Source: Candidatus Woesearchaeota archaeon (GTDB taxonomy: Archaea > Nanobdellota > Nanobdellia > Woesearchaeales > UBA9989). From it: a DNA stretch of 64,000 nt. Numbering within the stretch: the first letter of the stretch is position 1; every line of letters starts with the position of its first letter. Below, piece by piece: positions 5,119 to 61,014 of the stretch. The notes below the pieces were generated by a model, which searched no databases, was not told the DNA's origin, and saw only the letters and a program-made list of their open reading frames with translations. The stretch spans positions 2,514 through 66,513 of the forward strand of contig DUKZ01000038.1 in NCBI GenBank assembly GCA_013329045.1, read 5' to 3'. Position numbers and translations under genes: made by a program.

Positions 5119-5265
5119 GTTTGAAAACAACAATAATGGCTTCGACGCCTTGCTTTGCAAGGCTATAAACCACCCCGAAAGTCCACCAAAAGCTTTGCTT
5201 TTTGGTCGCGAAAACAGGTTTTCACGGGCCAACCCTGGGTTTATCTCGCCATTGCTGTTTTCAAA
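5119..5265. repeat. Complex cruciform element (structured-repeat family, copy 1)
   Basis: The outer arms TTTGAAAACAACAATAATGGC-like (5120-5140) and GCCATTGCTGTTTTCAAAA (5248-5266) pair almost fully. Inside are several perfect hairpins: GCCTTGC-ttt-GCAAGGC, ACCAAAAGC-ttt-GCTTTTTGGT, GAAAAC-ag-GTTTTC and AACCC-t-GGGTT. It fills the gap between the KH gene and the end of the TPR gene. The outer arm shares CAAT..TGGC / GCCATTG with the copy at 31.4 kb. Confidence 0.7.
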
Positions 5266-19416: not shown

Positions 19417-19512
19417 ACAAACCTCTTTTTCCTCTATAACCACCAATACTATTATATAAACTTTCCTAAAGAGGGAAAAATAAGTTTACGTGCTTTTTAC
19501 CGGGTAACCTTC

Positions 19513-19599
19513 GCCAATACCGCCACTGGCAGCAAACCGTTTTTGCACTACAAAAACTTGGGCTTTGAGACCCAAGCCATTTGCGCCGGGGGTATTGGC
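19513..19599. repeat. Cruciform element (structured-repeat family, copy 2)
   Basis: The outer arms GCCAATACC (19513-19521) and GGTATTGGC (19591-19599) pair perfectly. The left inner border is CCACTGGCAGCAAACCG and the right TTTGCGCCGG, matching other family copies (ACTGGC...GCGCC). The inner hairpins are GTTTTTG-cacta-CAAAAAC and TTGGG-ctttgaga-CCCAA, with GCAAA/TTTGC as a middle stem. Confidence 0.8.
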
Positions 19600-19650
19600 T
19601 TTCATAATCAGCTAGGAAAAGCATATTAACTCCTGAAGGAACAAGACCTC

Positions 19651-25819: not shown

Positions 25820-26668
25820 ATGGGAATAATACATTTTTTTAAAAAAGAGAAAAAAGAACAGCATGAGACAGCTCTTGCTCACATCCACACTTCACTCTCC
25901 CATGCATTCTCAAAAGTCCGCCAGGAGATGCACTTGCTGTTTGCCTGGATCCATTACTTCAACCACCGCCATGACCAGCATGAGTCCAATCACGCACTTT
26001 CAGTCCAACGGTTTTCAGAGCATCGATCCCTCATCCAGGAGATGGATGCCAAGATCAGGGAGGTGGAAAAGGAACTCGCTTCCCTTCGGGAGGATCATGA
26101 TACTCTTCGACGAGAAAATACTTTGCTTACTGAAAAGAGCAGTACGGATCCGAACCTGAACCGGGCAAGTACGGACCCGGGTACGAACCTGAGTACGAAT
26201 CCGAACCTGGTACGAATCCGAACTAGCTTTATCGACGACAAAAGAGGTTCTGAAAAGGTGAAGTACGAACCTGAACCGGGCAAGTACGGACCCGGGTACG
26301 AACCTGAGTCCGAACTCCAGTACGAACCTGAACCAGAGACTTATCGACGAGAAAAGCCAATTGAAGCAGAGGAGGATGAATCCGAACCTGAACTGCCCAG
26401 GAAAAAGAGCAAAGTGGGAAGAATGCTAGAAGAAAAGATCCTCCAGAAGGTTCGCACGAATAAGAAAGAGTACATCCTCCAGCAGATGCTCAAGATGATA
26501 GAAGAAGGCTCTTATACCACAAAGGAACTTGAATTGGAATTGGTCCAAAAGAAGGGGTATTGCGGCAGGACCGCTTTCTATTCGTATCTGAAGGAACTTC
26601 GCGACAAGGGCCATATCCAACGCTCAGATAGCCTAGGAGATGGACTTATTCTTCGCCATGCGCGGTAG
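25820..26668 (+). CDS. Coiled-coil protein with a nucleotide repeat read in two frames and a C-terminal winged helix
   Basis: A 282-residue protein. The N-terminal half (about 1-110) is helical with His-rich and coiled-coil segments (IQEMDAKIREVEKELASLREDHDTLRREN). The middle (about 110-180) is low-complexity: first STDPNLNRASTDPGTNLS, then KYEPEPGKYGPGYEPE. Both come from the same 44-base DNA repeat read in different frames. The C-terminal part (about 205-282) looks like a winged helix (EEGSYTTKELELELVQKKGYCGRTAFYSYLKELRDKGHI). Possibly a DNA-binding or regulatory protein; the family is not recognised. TATA TGTTTAAATA lies about 30 bases upstream. Confidence 0.65.
   Translation: MGIIHFFKKEKKEQHETALAHIHTSLSHAFSKVRQEMHLLFAWIHYFNHRHDQHESNHALSVQRFSEHRSLIQEMDAKIREVEKELASLREDHDTLRRENTLLTEKSSTDPNLNRASTDPGTNLSTNPNLVRIRTSFIDDKRGSEKVKYEPEPGKYGPGYEPESELQYEPEPETYRREKPIEAEEDESEPELPRKKSKVGRMLEEKILQKVRTNKKEYILQQMLKMIEEGSYTTKELELELVQKKGYCGRTAFYSYLKELRDKGHIQRSDSLGDGLILRHAR
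26103..26360 (+). repeat. Direct repeats inside the coiled-coil gene
   Basis: A 44-base sequence is perfectly repeated at 26151-26194 and 26266-26309 (offset 115, not a multiple of three). Around it a looser unit starting TCGACGA recurs at about 26107, 26232 and 26345. The array therefore has two full units and a partial third. Confidence 0.85.
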
Positions 26669-31408: not shown

Positions 31409-31497
31409 GGGAAAAGCAGGAACAATGGCAAGAAACCGATTTACTTCGTAAATCTGCCCTCAGAGACCTCGGGCTTTCTGCCATTGCTGTTTTTCCC
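31409..31497. repeat. Cruciform element (structured-repeat family, copy 3)
   Basis: The arms GGGAAAA...CAATGGCA (31409-31430) and TGCCATTGCTG...TTTTCCC (31479-31497) pair with a bulge. Inside are the perfect hairpin GATTTAC-ttc-GTAAATC and a second arm GCCC-N10-GGGC; AGAAA/TTTCT forms the middle stem. It stands between divergent promoters. Confidence 0.75.
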
Positions 31498-39714: not shown

Positions 39715-39805
39715 GAGAGAAAGAGGGGAAGAATGGTATTTAAAGGTAGTGGAAAAGAGTTTTAAAAGGGCACATGGGAGGATGCGCGCCAGGTAATTCC
39801 TCTGA

Positions 39806-39824
39806 GCAACAGCACTACTGGCAG
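39806..39824 (+). repeat. Left-end fragment of the cruciform family (copy 4, partial)
   Basis: GCAACAGCACTACTGGCAG matches the left end of the full copies at 57.2 and 58.4 kb (GGCA-ACACCACCACTGGCA), but no right end follows. It lies at the left border of the toxin-antitoxin island. Confidence 0.55.
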
Positions 39825-39859
39825 AAGAATTCCACGATAAAGGCGAAGATTGAGCTTTT

Positions 39860-40360
39860 TCATTTTGTGATTAATTCTTCAGTCTTATTGATAAAATCCA
39901 ACACCCTGTTCTCATATCCCTCTATCGTTTCATTCTGAAATCTTATATTTGTTGCGTAACTCGCATCATGCCGGTCATCTTTTAGCTGGGTGTAGAGTTC
40001 AGCATCTTCCTTGGATATTGAGAGCTCCTGTAATAACTCTGCTTCGTCCCTTCTTATCATATACTCTCTTATGAGCAGGAGAATTGTTGCATAATGGTTC
40101 TTTGATGAATATTTTTTATGTGTGATTAACGCTAAAGCTGAATGATATAATGAGTAGTAAAGAGTCACAACGAGCCAGTCATTGAATTTATGCTGATTTT
40201 TATTCAATTTGTAGAATTCTAGGTTATGCCTTGCTTTTTTTAGGTGTGATTGGGCCAATTCAGCATTATTATTAATTCTCCTTATATGCTTCTTCGTAAT
40301 GAAAAACTGCACTTCCTGATCCAGATAGTTCTTGTCTGAAAATAACTTGTCAATGTCCAT
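39860..40360 (-). CDS. HEPN-domain protein (probable toxin of an MNT/HEPN pair)
   Basis: A 166-residue all-helical protein. AQSHLKKARHNLEFYKLNKNQHKFNDWLVVTLYYSLYHSALALI matches the HEPN pattern, with an outer helix, a central YYSxYH helix and a late DDRHDASY segment near the usual RNase or partner site. HEPN toxins are RNases held in check by MNT nucleotidyltransferases. It overlaps the upstream nucleotidyltransferase gene by 11 bases. The classical Rx4-6H motif is not exact, so RNase activity is uncertain. Confidence 0.75.
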   Translation of the reverse strand: MDIDKLFSDKNYLDQEVQFFITKKHIRRINNNAELAQSHLKKARHNLEFYKLNKNQHKFNDWLVVTLYYSLYHSALALITHKKYSSKNHYATILLLIREYMIRRDEAELLQELSISKEDAELYTQLKDDRHDASYATNIRFQNETIEGYENRVLDFINKTEELITK

Positions 40361-40922
40361 CTACTATTGCCTCGTAAAAGTTTTGTTCTTTGTATATTGG
40401 AAAACCTGTCTTTCTTGCCTGCATGACAATATCATCCTTGTTTTCTTTGAACTGAGTGATGGTTGCATTGAACAGTGAAAGGGGGTATTTTGCAGTCAGC
40501 TGCGCCTCTTTTTTATTTTTGGATAGATCTGGTCGTTTATTGGAGATTATCAGAAGGTCTATATCACTATCTTCCTGCTCCTCTTTTCTTGAAACAGATC
40601 CAAACAGGACAACTGTGTAGACATCTTCAGGCATGGCCTTTAAAAAATTCCTTAAAGGAACTTTTATAACGGTGCTTAGGTCATTGAATTTTTGCATTGC
40701 TATTTCTGAGAACTTTAAGGCAAAAAGTTTTTTGTCTTTTATATGATAGTAGGTGTTTGACTTGGTCTTTTCCTGTACTGTAATCCCATTTTTGACAAAT
40801 TTGGCTAACGTGCTAGCGAGCGAGCTGTCTGAGAGTTTTGATAGCTCCTTTATCTCATTGAAATAAAGAGATTGCTTTTTGCTCTCAAAATATGCTCTGT
40901 AAACCTTATCTTCAGGCTTCAT
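40350..40922 (-). CDS. Nucleotidyltransferase with N-terminal winged helix (MNT-type antitoxin)
   Basis: A 190-residue protein. Residues about 1-75 form a winged-helix domain (YFNEIKELSKLSDSSLASTLAKFVKNGI); the rest is a minimal nucleotidyltransferase with VVLFGSVSRKEEQEDSDIDLLI, the GSxxR...SDxDLL signature of MNT antitoxins that modify HEPN toxins with AMP. The DNA-binding part could bind the 17-bp direct repeats upstream of its TATA box. Leaderless ATG 28 bases after the TATA box. Confidence 0.85.
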   Translation of the reverse strand: MKPEDKVYRAYFESKKQSLYFNEIKELSKLSDSSLASTLAKFVKNGITVQEKTKSNTYYHIKDKKLFALKFSEIAMQKFNDLSTVIKVPLRNFLKAMPEDVYTVVLFGSVSRKEEQEDSDIDLLIISNKRPDLSKNKKEAQLTAKYPLSLFNATITQFKENKDDIVMQARKTGFPIYKEQNFYEAIVDGH

Positions 40923-40945
40923 TTTACACTTGTTATGAGAGATAG

Positions 40946-40992
40946 TTTATAAATACTTCTATTTTTGGAGTGATTACTTCTAATTTTGGAGC
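40946..40992 (-). promoter_or_regulatory. TATA box and 17-bp direct repeats of the first MNT/HEPN pair
   Basis: Minus-strand TTTATAAAC (about 40946-40954) is the TATA box for the gene starting at 40922. Directly upstream of it are two near-identical 17-base direct repeats, ACTTCTATTTTTGGAGT (40955-40971) and ACTTCTAATTTTGGAGC (40976-40992), spaced 21 bases, i.e. two turns on one DNA face. They are likely sites for the wHTH part of the antitoxin. Confidence 0.6.
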
Positions 40993-40998
40993 TTATAA

Positions 40999-41209
40999 TG
41001 CCCAACATTGTACTGTCATTTGATGTTGCTAATTGGAGGGCGTTCTTTAACGATGAGTTTTGGATATTTTATGAGGTTTGACTTTGAGAGACAAGGAAAT
41101 GTCCCATTTCCTGTGCCCACAAAATATTCTATTTTTTGGGCAAAGTCGTCTGCGCTAAGTGGTGTTGCTTGTATAACAAAGGGATATCTGCGCTAATATT
41201 GCTGCCTTG
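40999..41209. repeat. Degenerate cruciform element (copy 5) between toxin-antitoxin units
   Basis: The right part carries TGCGCTAAGTGGTGTTGC (41151-41168) followed after 20 bases by TGCGCTAATATTG, an arrangement shared with the copy at 42.5 kb. Inside are hairpins GGAAAT-gtccc-ATTTCC (about 41092-41109) and GCCC...GGGC. The left end is not clear. The rest of the 384-base gap 40923-41306 shows only the promoters; no gene is seen. Confidence 0.5.
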
Positions 41210-41248
41210 ATGCTTACACTATAGCTCTTTTGTATGCAAAGGAGCAAA

Positions 41249-41294
41249 ACGTTTAAATACTTATTATACTTACTAAAGGATAATATTATCCTTT
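41249..41294 (+). promoter_or_regulatory. TATA box and 20-bp perfect palindrome operator of the second pair
   Basis: CGTTTAAATA (about 41249-41259) is a TATA box; 25 bases on, at the expected transcription start, stands the perfect palindrome AAAGGATAATATTATCCTTT (41275-41294). AGGAG and the ATG at 41307 follow. A repressor bound here would block initiation; the wHTH part of the first gene is the natural candidate. Confidence 0.7.
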
Positions 41295-41306
41295 TAGGAG
41301 TATAAA

Positions 41307-41933
41307 ATGGAGATTCATGCAGAAGAGCTGAAAGTGATTGACTTGTTTAGAAAGAACATTCTTTGCACATTCACACTCAAACAGATTATGAAGAAGCTGA
41401 ACAAAAAGTCATATAATTGGACCTATAAAGCGACAGAGAAACTTAGTAAAGGGATACTCATCAGTGAGCGGGTGGGAAGGACAACAGTCATAAAACTCAA
41501 TATCATGAGCAATAAGACGCTTATGCATTTACTCTATTTGGATAAAAAAGAAGCGTATGCAAAGAATGTTCCCCTTGTGGATGAGATCATTGCAAGCTGC
41601 TCAAAGCTGACGCCTTTTTTTACCCTTCTTGTGACTGGAAGTTATGCAACAGGAACACCTAGGAAAACTTCCGATATTGATATTGTCATTATTACTGAGG
41701 ACAATAACACCAAGACAGGCATTAAACCATACATCCGAGAAGCAACCAAGCTCTCAGGAATAGCTGTTGATGACCAGGTGTTTACCAAGGAAGAATTTTA
41801 CCGCATGCTTGTTTCTGACAATGAAAATTTTGGCAAAGAAGTCTTCAGAAAACACCTGCTGTTCTATGGAAATGAAGCATATTACCAAATCGTACGGGAG
41901 GCAATTCAGAATGGTTTACCGAACAAAATATGA
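41307..41933 (+). CDS. Nucleotidyltransferase with N-terminal winged helix (second pair)
   Basis: A 208-residue protein. The N-terminal region (about 1-70) is a winged helix (FTLKQIMKKLNKKSYNWTYKATEKLSKG); the nucleotidyltransferase core follows with LLVTGSYATGTPRKTSDIDIVIIT (GS...SDxD). The C-terminal part is helical. As for MNT antitoxins, it should modify the HEPN protein encoded by the next gene, which it overlaps by 23 bases. AGGAG lies seven bases before the ATG. Poor similarity to the first pair shows separate origin rather than recent duplication. Confidence 0.82.
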   Translation: MEIHAEELKVIDLFRKNILCTFTLKQIMKKLNKKSYNWTYKATEKLSKGILISERVGRTTVIKLNIMSNKTLMHLLYLDKKEAYAKNVPLVDEIIASCSKLTPFFTLLVTGSYATGTPRKTSDIDIVIITEDNNTKTGIKPYIREATKLSGIAVDDQVFTKEEFYRMLVSDNENFGKEVFRKHLLFYGNEAYYQIVREAIQNGLPNKI

Positions 41934-42489
41934 GTACCTGCATGATGCACAAGAACTTGCAAAAGAGATAGAAAAACACAGGAAAGCGGGAAGCATTTTC
42001 GAGGAGATAAGACTTGACATGCCACAGATCAGACTTAACTTTGACCGGGCAGAAAATGAATTAAAGCATGCTGAAACAATGTTCAGGGTATCATCCAACA
42101 ATACTTTGAAAAAAGAACTTGAACTGCTTGAGAGTGATACATTTTATAGTGGCGTTATTAGCCATGCCTATTATGCAATATTTTATGCTACGAAAGCGGT
42201 ATTACTAAAGGAGAAGACAAGAACAAAAAGTCCAAACGTTCATAAGGCAACATTAGACTCTTTTGCCTATTATTTTGTTATCAACGGAAAACTGGATAGT
42301 GAGCTTCTGAGAATCTATAAGTCGGCAATCATCAAAGCGGACTCACTACTTGGCTTATTTCTCTTTGAAAAGGACAAACGGGGGGAATTTACCTACCAAA
42401 AACTGCCAGATGCAAATAAAGAACCTGCTGATGAGTCAATAAAAAATGCAATAACATTCCTGACTCATGTAAGGAAGCTCACTTCGTGA
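41911..42489 (+). CDS. HEPN-domain protein (second pair)
   Basis: A 192-residue helical protein. FDRAENELKHAETMFRVS...SGVISHAYYAIFYATKAVLLKEKTRTKSPNVHKATLDSF is the HEPN core: an early helix with the acidic patch and the HAYYAIFYATKA helix, followed by a His/Lys segment. The start is MVYRTKY, 14 bases after GGGAGG; the longer frame from 41767 only shadows the nucleotidyltransferase. A probable RNase-type toxin or a substrate-binding partner of the nucleotidyltransferase. Confidence 0.78.
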   Translation: MVYRTKYEYLHDAQELAKEIEKHRKAGSIFEEIRLDMPQIRLNFDRAENELKHAETMFRVSSNNTLKKELELLESDTFYSGVISHAYYAIFYATKAVLLKEKTRTKSPNVHKATLDSFAYYFVINGKLDSELLRIYKSAIIKADSLLGLFLFEKDKRGEFTYQKLPDANKEPADESIKNAITFLTHVRKLTS

Positions 42490-42496
42490 AGGAAGC

Positions 42497-42598
42497 GGGC
42501 AAACAGGTTATTCTCTGCAAAAAAAATCTGGCTAGATACTTTTGTGTTTGCGCTAAGTGGTGTTGCCTAGAATAGAACGGGTGTGCGCTGGTGTTGGC
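42497..42598. repeat. Cruciform element (copy 6), left arm eroded
   Basis: GGGCAAACAGGTTATTCTC...CTGGCTAGATAC (about 42497-42540) aligns by eye with the inner left half of the copy at 57.2 kb (GGCAAGCAGACCGGTTTTC...GCGTAGATAC), and TGCGCTAAGTGGTGTTGC (42549-42566) is its right end, followed by a second, shorter right end TGCGCTGGTGTTGGC (42584-42598). Confidence 0.65.
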
Positions 42599-42612
42599 TA
42601 TTTTCTGAAAAA

Positions 42613-56631: not shown

Positions 56632-56673
56632 AGCAGATTCTTCATACTCTTTTTTTCTCATTTCTTAACCATT

Positions 56674-56763
56674 GCGACAATACCACTGGCGCAAACGAAA
56701 TGCCTCATTTCGAAGTTTTTCTGAAAGAAAAACAGTTTTTCCTGCCAGTGGTGGTATTGTTGC
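56674..56763. repeat. Cruciform element (copy 7)
   Basis: The arms GCGACAATACCACTGGC (56674-56690) and GCCAGTGGTGGTATTGTTGC (56744-56763) pair with a three-base bulge. Inside are the perfect hairpins CGAAATG-cct-CATTTCG and GTTTTTC-tgaaa-GAAAAAC. It follows the coiled-coil operon and precedes the tRNA. Confidence 0.8.
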
Positions 56764-56820
56764 TAAGCTAGAGAGTTATTGTTGGATGAGAACTAGCCAG
56801 AATAGGCCTTTGCGAGTAAC

Positions 56821-56829
56821 CTTTTTAAA
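56821..56829 (+). promoter_or_regulatory. TATA box of the tRNA-Leu gene
   Basis: CTTTTTAAA lies about 30 bases upstream of the first tRNA base, the normal archaeal distance. Confidence 0.6.
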
Positions 56830-56856
56830 CAGCCCCTCTTTCTTTTCCTCATACCC

Positions 56857-56999
56857 GTGGGGGTACCGAAGTCTGGTCAAACGAGCTAGACTCAAGAAAT
56901 TTGAGTGCTGAAGGTGCGAGATGATGTACCACAGACTGCCCATTAGTTGAGGAATCTAGTCCCTTAGTGGGTTCAGGGGTTCGAATCCCCTCCCCCACA
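56857..56999 (+). tRNA. tRNA-Leu(CAA) with a 37/38 intron
   Basis: Acceptor GTGGGGG (56857-56863) pairs with CCCCCAC (56992-56998), followed by discriminator A. The T arm is AGGGG-TTCGAAT-CCCCT and the long variable arm CCC-TTAGT-GGG marks a class II tRNA. The anticodon stem CTAGA (56886-56890) pairs with TCTAG (56955-56959) only if about 57 bases (56897-56953) are removed, giving the loop CT-CAA-GA. CTCAA of the loop pairs with TTGAG in the intron with a GAA bulge on each side: a bulge-helix-bulge motif for the archaeal splicing endonuclease. The D stem is short, with a C-A mismatch at 10:25. Confidence 0.88.
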
Positions 57000-57058
57000 T
57001 TATAATTCTTGATATAATCCTTGAGAGAATTAAGAGATGATGGGGAGGGGATTCGAAC
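56979..57058. repeat. Inverted repeat formed by the tRNA 3' end and a downstream reverse copy
   Basis: GTTCGAATCCCCTCCCC of the tRNA (56979-56995) recurs in reverse orientation as GGGGAGGGGATTCGAAC (57042-57058). The inner part TAATTCT...AGAATTA also pairs, so the 80 bases could form a long hairpin containing the tRNA T arm and acceptor strand. Confidence 0.75.
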
Positions 57059-57068
57059 ATATGAATAA

Positions 57069-57146
57069 CAAAAACCCGTCGCTCGGAGCTCACCTTGCCC
57101 TCAAGGGCAGGGTATTGCGCTCCTCGCCTTGATAGACGGGTTTTTG
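57069..57146. repeat. Cruciform element, second type (copy B)
   Basis: CAAAAACCCGTC (57069-57080) pairs perfectly with GACGGGTTTTTG (57135-57146). Inside are GGAGC/GCTCC and the hairpin TTGCCCT-ca-AGGGCAGG. It shares AAGGGCAGGGTATTG with the next element. Confidence 0.8.
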
Positions 57147-57148
57147 AA

Positions 57149-57198
57149 ATTGAAAATTTCGGCCTAAAGGCAGGGGTATTGAACCCGAAATTTTCAAT
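57149..57198. repeat. Inverted repeat, second type (copy C)
   Basis: ATTGAAAATTTCGG (57149-57162) pairs with CCGAAATTTTCAAT (57185-57198) over 14 bases. The loop has GCC-taaa-GGC and then AGGGGTATTG, related to copy B. Confidence 0.8.
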
Positions 57199-57232
57199 AA
57201 ATTAATACTGATATCTTGTGTATTCCCCTTCT

Positions 57233-57318
57233 GGCAACACCACCACTGGCAAGCAGACCGGTTTTCTTTCAGAAAACCTTTGCGTAGATACTACGCGATC
57301 TGCGCCTGTGGTGTTGCC
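57233..57318. repeat. Cruciform element (copy 8, best example)
   Basis: GGCAACACCAC (57233-57243) pairs perfectly with GTGGTGTTGCC (57308-57318). Next come ACTGGC on the left and GCGCC on the right, a middle stem GCAGA/TCTGC and two perfect hairpins, GGTTTTC-tttca-GAAAACC and GCGTA-gatac-TACGC. The result is a three-way cruciform of 86 bases. Confidence 0.85.
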
Positions 57319-57362
57319 TATCAAAAAGATTCTGCAGTTTTCAATAAAAAGAGAAAAAGAAA

Positions 57363-58247: not shown

Positions 58248-58357
58248 GCAAGCCACCTCATTTGGTAATAGGCTGACAATGCAGGTTCTGGTATTTAAAG
58301 GTTACGATGGGTTGGGGGGGAAGAATGACAAGAGTTTGTTTCTCTTTTCTTCATTTT

Positions 58358-58450
58358 GGCACCACCACTACTGGCAGGCAGACCTGTTTTCTCTCTTCGT
58401 TCGAAAACCTTCGCTCAGATACTTAAGCGATCAGCGCTCGTGGCGGTGCC
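58358..58450. repeat. Cruciform element (copy 9)
   Basis: GGCACCACCAC (58358-58368) pairs with GTGGCGGTGCC (58440-58450) with one mismatch; the change of CAAC to CACC on the left is matched by GTTG to GGTG on the right, a compensating change against copy 8. The inner hairpins are TTTTC/GAAAA and TCGCT...AGCGA with AGATAC. It abuts the stop codon of the pilin-like gene at 58451. Confidence 0.85.
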
Positions 58451-59137
58451 TCATCTGCACAATTCCAGCTTGACGACGATTGGCGATAACTGCGAGGGGA
58501 TGATGAAATGCATGGACTCCATATCGCCTGGGCATTGAGAGACTCCATTGTTTGCAGGGTTTGTGGGATCTGAGGGAGAAGAAATGACCCCTTCACTGCC
58601 AGCAGGATAAGATCTTAATAAGGCACCCCCAATATTAGCGCTATAGAAGGGATTACTCCAAGGAAGATTTGTTGTTGCATCCCTAAAGACATATTTTGTA
58701 TGATCACTTGCATCCGATCCGGTAAATATCCTTAAGATATATTGGCGGCTGAACTGCTCATCCTCGAAGGTCCTGCTCATGATATAATGCAATGTTTGAT
58801 ATGCATAGATGCAAGAATCAAAGGTAGTCCCTTGATATGTGCCAAGCGTTCCTCCGGCAATGCTCATATCACAATCAATAGTATGAGAGGGGCCAAGACA
58901 GTCGGAAAGGAGTTCGGACACCTTCACCTTGTTGCATTTTGTCTCCGTCTGGAGCATGGTCTGGAGGAATGAGGTGACCTGCTGGGATGATTGGAAGTTC
59001 TGTCTTACTGTAGAGGGCTTCTTTGTCATGGAGATGCCGATGACAACTGTCATGATGATGGAGAGGAGGAGGACTACGATGACTAGGCCAAACATCTCCA
59101 TCTGCCCGCTTTTCTTCCTGATTATTGATCTAGCTAT
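58451..59137 (-). CDS. Type IV pilin-like protein with a probable ATA start
   Basis: A 228-residue protein if read from ATA at 59137. This start gives xARSIIRKKSGQMEMFGLVIVVLLLSII: a basic leader, KKSG cleavage and a hydrophobic helix, the full class III signal. GAGGTGA stands six bases before ATA, and an in-frame TGA lies inside it. No ATG, GTG or TTG occurs between that stop and the ATG at 59101, which would lose the leader. The outer domain (about 45-228) has Cys in TKCNKV, SDCLGPS, IDCDMS, DSCIYA, SQCPGD and LELCR. Overlaps the previous gene by eight bases. Confidence 0.75.
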   Translation of the reverse strand: MARSIIRKKSGQMEMFGLVIVVLLLSIIMTVVIGISMTKKPSTVRQNFQSSQQVTSFLQTMLQTETKCNKVKVSELLSDCLGPSHTIDCDMSIAGGTLGTYQGTTFDSCIYAYQTLHYIMSRTFEDEQFSRQYILRIFTGSDASDHTKYVFRDATTNLPWSNPFYSANIGGALLRSYPAGSEGVISSPSDPTNPANNGVSQCPGDMESMHFIIPSQLSPIVVKLELCR

Positions 59138-60849: not shown

Positions 60850-60989
60850 CAACAATACTACTGGCCACAAACCGTTTTTCTTCGCTTTGCTCAGAAAAAC
60901 TCCGCTTAGATACTAAGCGGTTTGCGCCACTAAAAATTGCTTTGCAATTTTTGTGCAATAAACCTCTGGTTTATTTGCATTATTGTTGC
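60850..60989. repeat. Cruciform element (copy 10, with two extra hairpins)
   Basis: CAACAATA (60850-60857) pairs with TATTGTTG (60981-60988). Inside, ACTGGC, ACAAACCG...CGGTTTGCGCC and GCTTAG-atac-TAAGC match the family; GTTTTTC/GAAAAAC is the other inner hairpin. Two more hairpins, AAAAATTGC-ttt-GCAATTTTT and AATAAACC-tct-GGTTTATT, are inserted between GCGCC and the right arm. Confidence 0.85.
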
Positions 60990-61014
60990 TTTACGCTATT
61001 GTAATTATTTCACC

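Follow-up and report, generated by a model that had tools for sequence, protein, structure and literature searches.

A putative superfamily of branched palindromic DNA elements in an archaeal order, comparable to bacterial REPINs

The 64,000-nucleotide stretch of Woesearchaeales DNA analyzed here (hereafter, the window) contains, within positions 56632-57362, two full copies of a palindromic repeat with a tRNA-like gene between them. What are these repeats, and is the molecule that folds DNA or RNA? Our preferred answer, to which we assign a probability of about 0.6, is that they represent a superfamily of palindromic DNA elements, short, non-autonomous and hitherto undescribed, that belongs to this archaeal order and is comparable to the REPINs of bacteria.

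Copies in the window and in the genome

The type I unit consists of approximately 90 bases of palindromic DNA that is able to fold as a three-way branched hairpin. In an alignment of 13 clean genome copies, which were collected by reading ten sites in the window and by a strict pattern scan of the genome, the outer stem was typically GGCAACACCACT/AGTGGTGTTGCC (approximately 12 bp). Inward from this stem lie a three-nucleotide 5' bulge (ACT), the pairs GGC/GCC, a second 5' bulge (AG) and the inner stem GCARA/TYTGC. The inner stem leads through CC to a T-rich hairpin, from which one T separates a second hairpin, capped by a G(ANN)C triloop. We built a covariance model (R1) from the 13 copies using a hand-written structure and searched the window with the filters off. 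The training set included the window copies at 57232, 19512, 58357 and 56674, and the copies at 60850 and 31411 were outside it.

The original prediction had listed ten look-alike cruciforms in the window. Seven of these were full copies, six found by R1 and one by R2, a second covariance model based on the type II elements described below; this last copy (5122..5263) was absent from the R2 training set. When the seven were folded as single-stranded DNA, z ranged from -2.3 to -8.2 relative to shuffled sequences (Table 1). The remaining three sites (39806, 40999 and 42497) were relics, half copies or decayed copies. At the site 40999 only a right arm was found, near 41149-41168, and the R1 match at 42494 (11.2 bits, E 1.3) was not significant. 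The copy at 56674, the seventh in the original list, is oriented opposite to its neighbor 470 bp away.

Table 1. Elements and element remnants in the window (R1 and R2, covariance models; z, single-strand DNA fold relative to shuffles)
Feature	Position	Strand	Evidence
Full type I element	57232..57320	+	R1 E 6.3e-25; z -8.2
Parts of this element: outer stem GGCAACACCAC/GTGGTGTTGCC, bulge, GGC/GCC, inner stem GCAGA/TCTGC, T-rich hairpin, triloop hairpin	57232..57320	+	
Full type I element	56674..56762	-	R1 E 2.4e-17; z -6.0
Full type I element, pilin-like genes on either side	58357..58452	+	R1 E 1.5e-18; z -2.3
Type I element; two extra hairpins separate GCGCC from the distal right arm	60850..60990	+	R1 60850-60943, E 3.5e-11; fold of 60850-60996, z -7.3, arms close at ~60988
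Full type I element, divergent gap	19512..19601	+	R1 E 6.3e-19; z -5.1
Diverged type I element	31411..31496	+	R1 E 4.5e-10, outside training; z -4.6
Longer multi-hairpin member, arms GAAAACAACAATAATGGC/GCCATTGCTGTTTTC	5122..5263	+	R2 E 4.8e-8; z -3.6
Left-arm relic GCAACAGCACTACTGGCAGA	39805..39826	+	Pattern match, 1 mismatch; no covariance-model match
Two tandem right-arm relics (CTGCGCTAAGTGGTGTTGC, CTGCGCTAATATTGCTGCC)	41148..41206	+	Repeat D16, half-motif scan, sequence
Decayed copy (model match 42494-42554) and another right-arm relic	42494..42610	+	D16

Several other features of the window were recorded. The tRNA-like gene between the two elements (56857-57000) has a probable intron and was not called by ARAGORN in default mode; an inverted, 83% identical copy of its 3' end lies 36 nt later, at 57037-57065. 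At 39860-42489 lie two oppositely oriented toxin-antitoxin-like modules of the HEPN/nucleotidyltransferase (MNT) kind, and decayed element arms flank both modules and sit between them. Additional hairpins inside the fold were seen at 60850-60990 and, outside the window, in loci L254 and L255 of genome G341 and at L178 5076, as if they had been added modularly. Short tandem repeats of the AGTACGGACCCGGGTACGAACCTGA type lie within a predicted open reading frame at 26151-26331.

The 1.74-Mb genome (G000) carries approximately 50 copies in both orientations. R1 gave 59 matches at E <= 0.1, some of which represented the opposite strand of one copy, and merging left 51 places in the examined loci. 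The association with pilin and toxin-antitoxin genes noticed earlier is a local one, and the copies are spread over most contigs. In contrast, the claim that the elements lie only between genes held genome-wide: 50 of the 51 places overlapped called genes by no more than 20 bases (genes were called with a simple hexamer-based caller written for this analysis), whereas 13% of random 85-mers were intergenic. The flanking genes of 47 copies were arranged in tandem (29), divergently (12) or convergently (6), in the same background proportions as gaps of 85 bp or more in general (105, 51 and 23, respectively). There was therefore no preference for promoters, gene ends or positions within operons, which disfavors a terminator or a 3'-end RNA. 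Neighboring copies tended to point the same way (19/26, permutation p 0.012), and orientation correlated weakly with GC skew (p 0.02), both of which are weak hints of a lagging-strand bias.

The closest copies, L125 and L165, were 92% identical over the exact length of the element, and their flanks were unrelated. Except for this pair and the copies of genome G118 (see below), copies were approximately 70-85% alike, and recent movement is thus thinly documented. The flanks of the copies showed no consistent target-site duplication or conserved target motif: matches of at least 5 nt occurred in 6 copies compared with 3.9 expected, and the mean match was 2.7 compared with 2.1 +/- 0.25 in shuffles. 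Pairing of the flanks with each other, which would be a sign of nested insertion, did not exceed that of shuffles. L161 does look like a nested insertion.

Distribution across the order and inverted pairs

R1 matched 26 genomes among the 353 of the order. A second form, type II, emerged from members in other families. Its outer and inner stems are those of type I (inner stem GCAGAC), its first hairpin often shows, on the complementary strand, a mismatch of two purines, and its second hairpin has the form CACCCCGNAAGGGG..CCCCC. R2 matched 93 of the 353 genomes, and the union of the two models comprised 95; 10-12 candidates per genome were scored in these order-wide searches. G000 carries both types, and the subfamilies are genome-specific. 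In a phylum sample of 371 genomes, whose split inside and outside the order was not listed, all 50 positive genomes belonged to the same order, and none of the matches listed fell outside it. A covariance-model search of this kind had been proposed with the original prediction, whose assignment of the archaeon to DPANN is plausible; covariation was far above that of controls (see below), and the search yielded further copies, also in related genomes.

Pattern scans for type I in named genomes and viruses returned 20 genome contigs and one viral contig, all chance matches; the best by covariance model, from Alcanivorax (E 4e-4), has poorly pairing arms. The type II half pattern occurred in more than 100 viral stretches, and the model confirmed none of the 80 examined. 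The window had no Rfam match at gathering scores, and one copy of each type gave only chance-level matches. Together with open-access literature searches, in which no match was found either, this agrees with the earlier statement that no named archaeal element has this plan.

Among loci scanned with R2, after removal of duplicates, neighbors less than 30 nt apart always formed convergent (plus-then-minus) inverted pairs, 23 in all, three of which were orthologues of others, and no divergent (minus-then-plus) pair within 30 nt was found. The spacer was mostly 6-24 nt, about 10 nt. The pairs occur in relatives and are mainly type II or mixed (G059 combines types I and II); the full copies in the window are single.

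Comparison of orthologous gaps, which had also been proposed, gave a mixed picture in the sister species G051 and G233. Units L155/L235 and L402/L407 are common to both. We also searched G233 for the flanks of a further six G051 sites. Those of L400 are contiguous there, and this empty site (L400/L420) differs in its flanking bases too; the L404 site is without a block of approximately 360 bp that holds a pair. Neither difference is a clean insertion, and the direction of change is therefore unproven; presence and absence between the sisters could also reflect deletion. The L401 site carries a different hairpin repeat instead of the element, and the remaining sites are rearranged or contain longer intervening DNA. 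Orthologues of G051 and G233 also showed a compensatory change, from CTGAC..GTCAG to CTGGC..GCCAG. In G119/G120 orthologues the hairpins were rebuilt, with whole arms altered on both sides, a pattern expected from template switching or from exchange among copies.

The sister species retain orthologous pairs, and in G051/G233 unit A is more conserved than the adjoining intergenic DNA. These observations would fit chromosomal hairpins or cruciforms that are presently immobile, bound by protein and selected, with a role in nucleoid organisation or in the control of replication forks or recombination. The conservation of bulges, mismatches and the junction, the mostly Watson-Crick pairing and the lack of positional preference relative to genes are also compatible with such sites. 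However, the elements are distributed patchily (95/353 genomes) in genome-specific subfamilies, relics lie beside full copies and presence differs between sisters. We consider this explanation rather unlikely.

Covariation and the folding molecule

The type I alignment had a covariation score of 0.414, compared with 0.148 +/- 0.016 for shuffles, and 61 two-sided changes, compared with 16; such changes were seen in 20 of 34 pairs. Pair counts exceeded those of all shuffles on five measures, and pairing dropped to approximately 40% in controls in which the partner was slid. The type II consensus fold had two-sided changes in 23 of 36 pairs. Thus the earlier observation that the stems are kept while their bases change was borne out, and of selection on structure and active spread, which had been offered as alternatives, the constraint and the dispersal are both supported.

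Structured RNA tolerates G.U pairs far more than A.C pairs. In 53 good rows, the type I stems contained 1630 Watson-Crick, 28 G.T and 48 A.C pairs, 14 of the last in one column beside an ambiguous bulge, whereas tRNA stems from the same loci and genomes contained 195, 16 and 1, respectively. The wobble rate differed between elements and tRNAs whether the displayed strand (Fisher p 9e-6) or the other strand (0.0016) was considered. Since wobble was much rarer than in tRNAs, these counts point to folded DNA and not RNA. A mixed set of 112 rows contained 3579 Watson-Crick, 36 G.T and 94 A.C pairs, which on the complementary strand become 94 G.T and 36 A.C. Type II likewise had more A.C than G.T, with 26 of its A.C cells in two junction columns. 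Further, recurrent T.C/C.T mismatches read as G.A on the complementary strand. As the residual wobble and the G.A mismatches both favor the complement of the displayed strand, we read the folding molecule as single-stranded DNA of that strand.

The same strand would be the one transcribed if the elements were structured RNAs, such as UTR elements, processing or stability sites or small RNAs. The elaborate three-way junction, the conserved G.A mismatches and the three-way covarying type II tract described below would suit an RNA, which would also show a tolerated wobble such as the 94 G.T against 36 A.C. However, wobble stayed well under the tRNA control on either strand, and much of the type II excess lies in the two junction columns. 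Gap types at background proportions, the lack of preference for promoters or gene ends and the lack of an Rfam match also speak against RNA, as do the convergent pairs, because any transcript would carry one member of each pair in the wrong sense. Structured RNA is accordingly improbable, and a structured 3'-end RNA, one of three roles suggested earlier, is disfavored by the wobble counts, the absent 3'-end preference and the inverted pairing. Of the other two roles, a non-autonomous mobile element fits best, and a protein-bound cruciform or hairpin is compatible.

In type II, the strands of a hairpin vary together with a third tract: in most cases CTCC/GGAG is accompanied by CCTC, TCCC/GGGA by CCCT, CCCC/GGGG by CCCC, and GCCC by CCCA. 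These combinations stand in the mirror relation required by a pyrimidine-motif intramolecular triplex. We predict that the tract CTCC-GNA-GGAG..CCTC may form an intramolecular triplex, whose strands would covary as T.A-T and C.G-C; shared descent of the subfamilies could also produce the three-strand covariation. As the covariation is almost only Watson-Crick, the family provides a natural data set on selectable secondary structure of DNA rather than RNA.

Comparison with known systems and candidate enzymes

REPINs and BIMEs are paired REP elements of bacteria, associated with RAYT transposases and laid out as an inverted pair with a short spacer (PMC3116915, PMC3733652). The archaeal elements resemble them as short, dispersed, intergenic palindromes with many copies, genome-specific families and a patchy distribution, and in their inverted pairs with a short spacer, as homo- and heterodimers (PMC3116915, PMC3733652). 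In contrast to the 20-40 bp single hairpin of REPINs, the unit measures 85-140 bp and has a three-way junction; in contrast to REPINs and BIMEs, the elements are archaeal, show one pair polarity only and lack a RAYT link. The GTAG/CGTC tag of REP elements seemed promising in type II, since GTAGG occurs in 57 of 87 type II copies and 2 of 51 type I copies. We rejected it: type I is without the tag; type II copies have a variable linker, and base pairs of two helices take up both of their G's. The family is thus order-wide and REPIN-like in architecture and dynamics, and by the features tested it is not a member of REP/RAYT.

With MITEs that have terminal inverted repeats (reviewed in PMC10969869), the elements share non-autonomy, intergenic location, lack of coding capacity and inverted termini, here the outer stem of approximately 12 bp. 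They differ in lacking a clear target-site duplication, in having a conserved branched fold as the internal region and in termini that vary among copies yet stay complementary. Near-identical copies in G118 had the appearance of fresh transposition but lie inside a longer repeated unit. This unit of approximately 155 bp (G118 L218-L221) has the terminal repeats GGGCAGTATT/AATACTGCCC and is apparently a MITE that picked up an element.

Archaeal integrons exist (PMC9668308), and the elements could be attC sites of dispersed gene cassettes, with which they share recognition by single-strand structure kept over sequence, extrahelical bases in asymmetric bulges and variable terminal hairpins. However, the elements are dispersed in both orientations and not in cassette arrays, and at their outer ends the boxes RYYYAAC and GTTRRRY were absent from all 51 type I copies and occurred together in 4 of 87 type II copies; we consider this identity very improbable. 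Equally far-fetched is the idea that template-switch repair alone keeps the palindromes perfect, without function or mobility. Such repair would account for arms that change jointly, even wholesale as in G119 and G120, and for the mostly Watson-Crick pairing. The ACT and AG bulges (retained in orthologous copies), the tandem mismatches and the invariant core would not survive it, however, nor would it create dispersed copies and ordered pairs.

Under the preferred reading of a mobile, REPIN-like DNA element, the folded single strand, probably the complement of the displayed one, would be recognized in trans by a recombinase or transposase when the DNA is single-stranded, for example on the lagging strand during replication, and the enzyme would move the unit. 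The match between the arms may be maintained by templated repair inside the palindrome together with exchange among copies. By analogy, an HUH/Y1-type (IS200/IS605-like) enzyme would be the likeliest class. A stronger version, in which branched single-strand folds form an order-wide, structure-defined class of mobile DNA that moves as inverted pairs through a new archaeal recombinase reading the three-way junction and the predicted triple-stranded tract of type II, is a speculative possibility that we hold doubtful. If the preferred reading is correct, REPIN-like elements, so far defined in bacteria, extend to a large uncultivated archaeal order, in a version with a more elaborate fold that affects roughly a quarter of its genomes; identification of the enzyme would reveal, in small-genome archaea, a new recombinase of single-stranded DNA.

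G000 contains two tyrosine recombinases and two Y1 transposase genes, one of which represents an IS200 copy that has ends of its own (L171). The elements resemble IS200/IS605 in having subterminal hairpins that are read as single strands; in contrast, their sequence is unrelated to the resident IS200, which carries the simple hairpin GGGGCAGAGCCCCGGGGTAT at either end. Y1 was present in 50 of 95 genomes with elements and 75 of 258 without (p 6e-5, with genome size and kinship ignored). Y1_Tnp had no match in 10 of the 22 genomes with at least nine R2 matches, including G051 and G003, which are 96-97% complete, and R2 had no match in the scanned Y1 loci, which were a part of all Y1 loci. Tyrosine recombinases were uninformative as partners because they are nearly universal in the order. 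This survey of Y1 and tyrosine recombinases tied no resident enzyme to the element.

A second family of hairpin repeats was noted at window positions 57074-57200 and in L171 (7070-7100, 7570-7600 and 8360-8465). In these repeats, longer palindromic arms enclose a self-complementary core and, directly after it, GGGGTAT or GGGTAT. The motif flanks an IS200-type TnpA gene (L171 7100-7528), and the repeats look like IS200 ends or derivatives. The repeat found at the L401 site of G233 resembles this second family.
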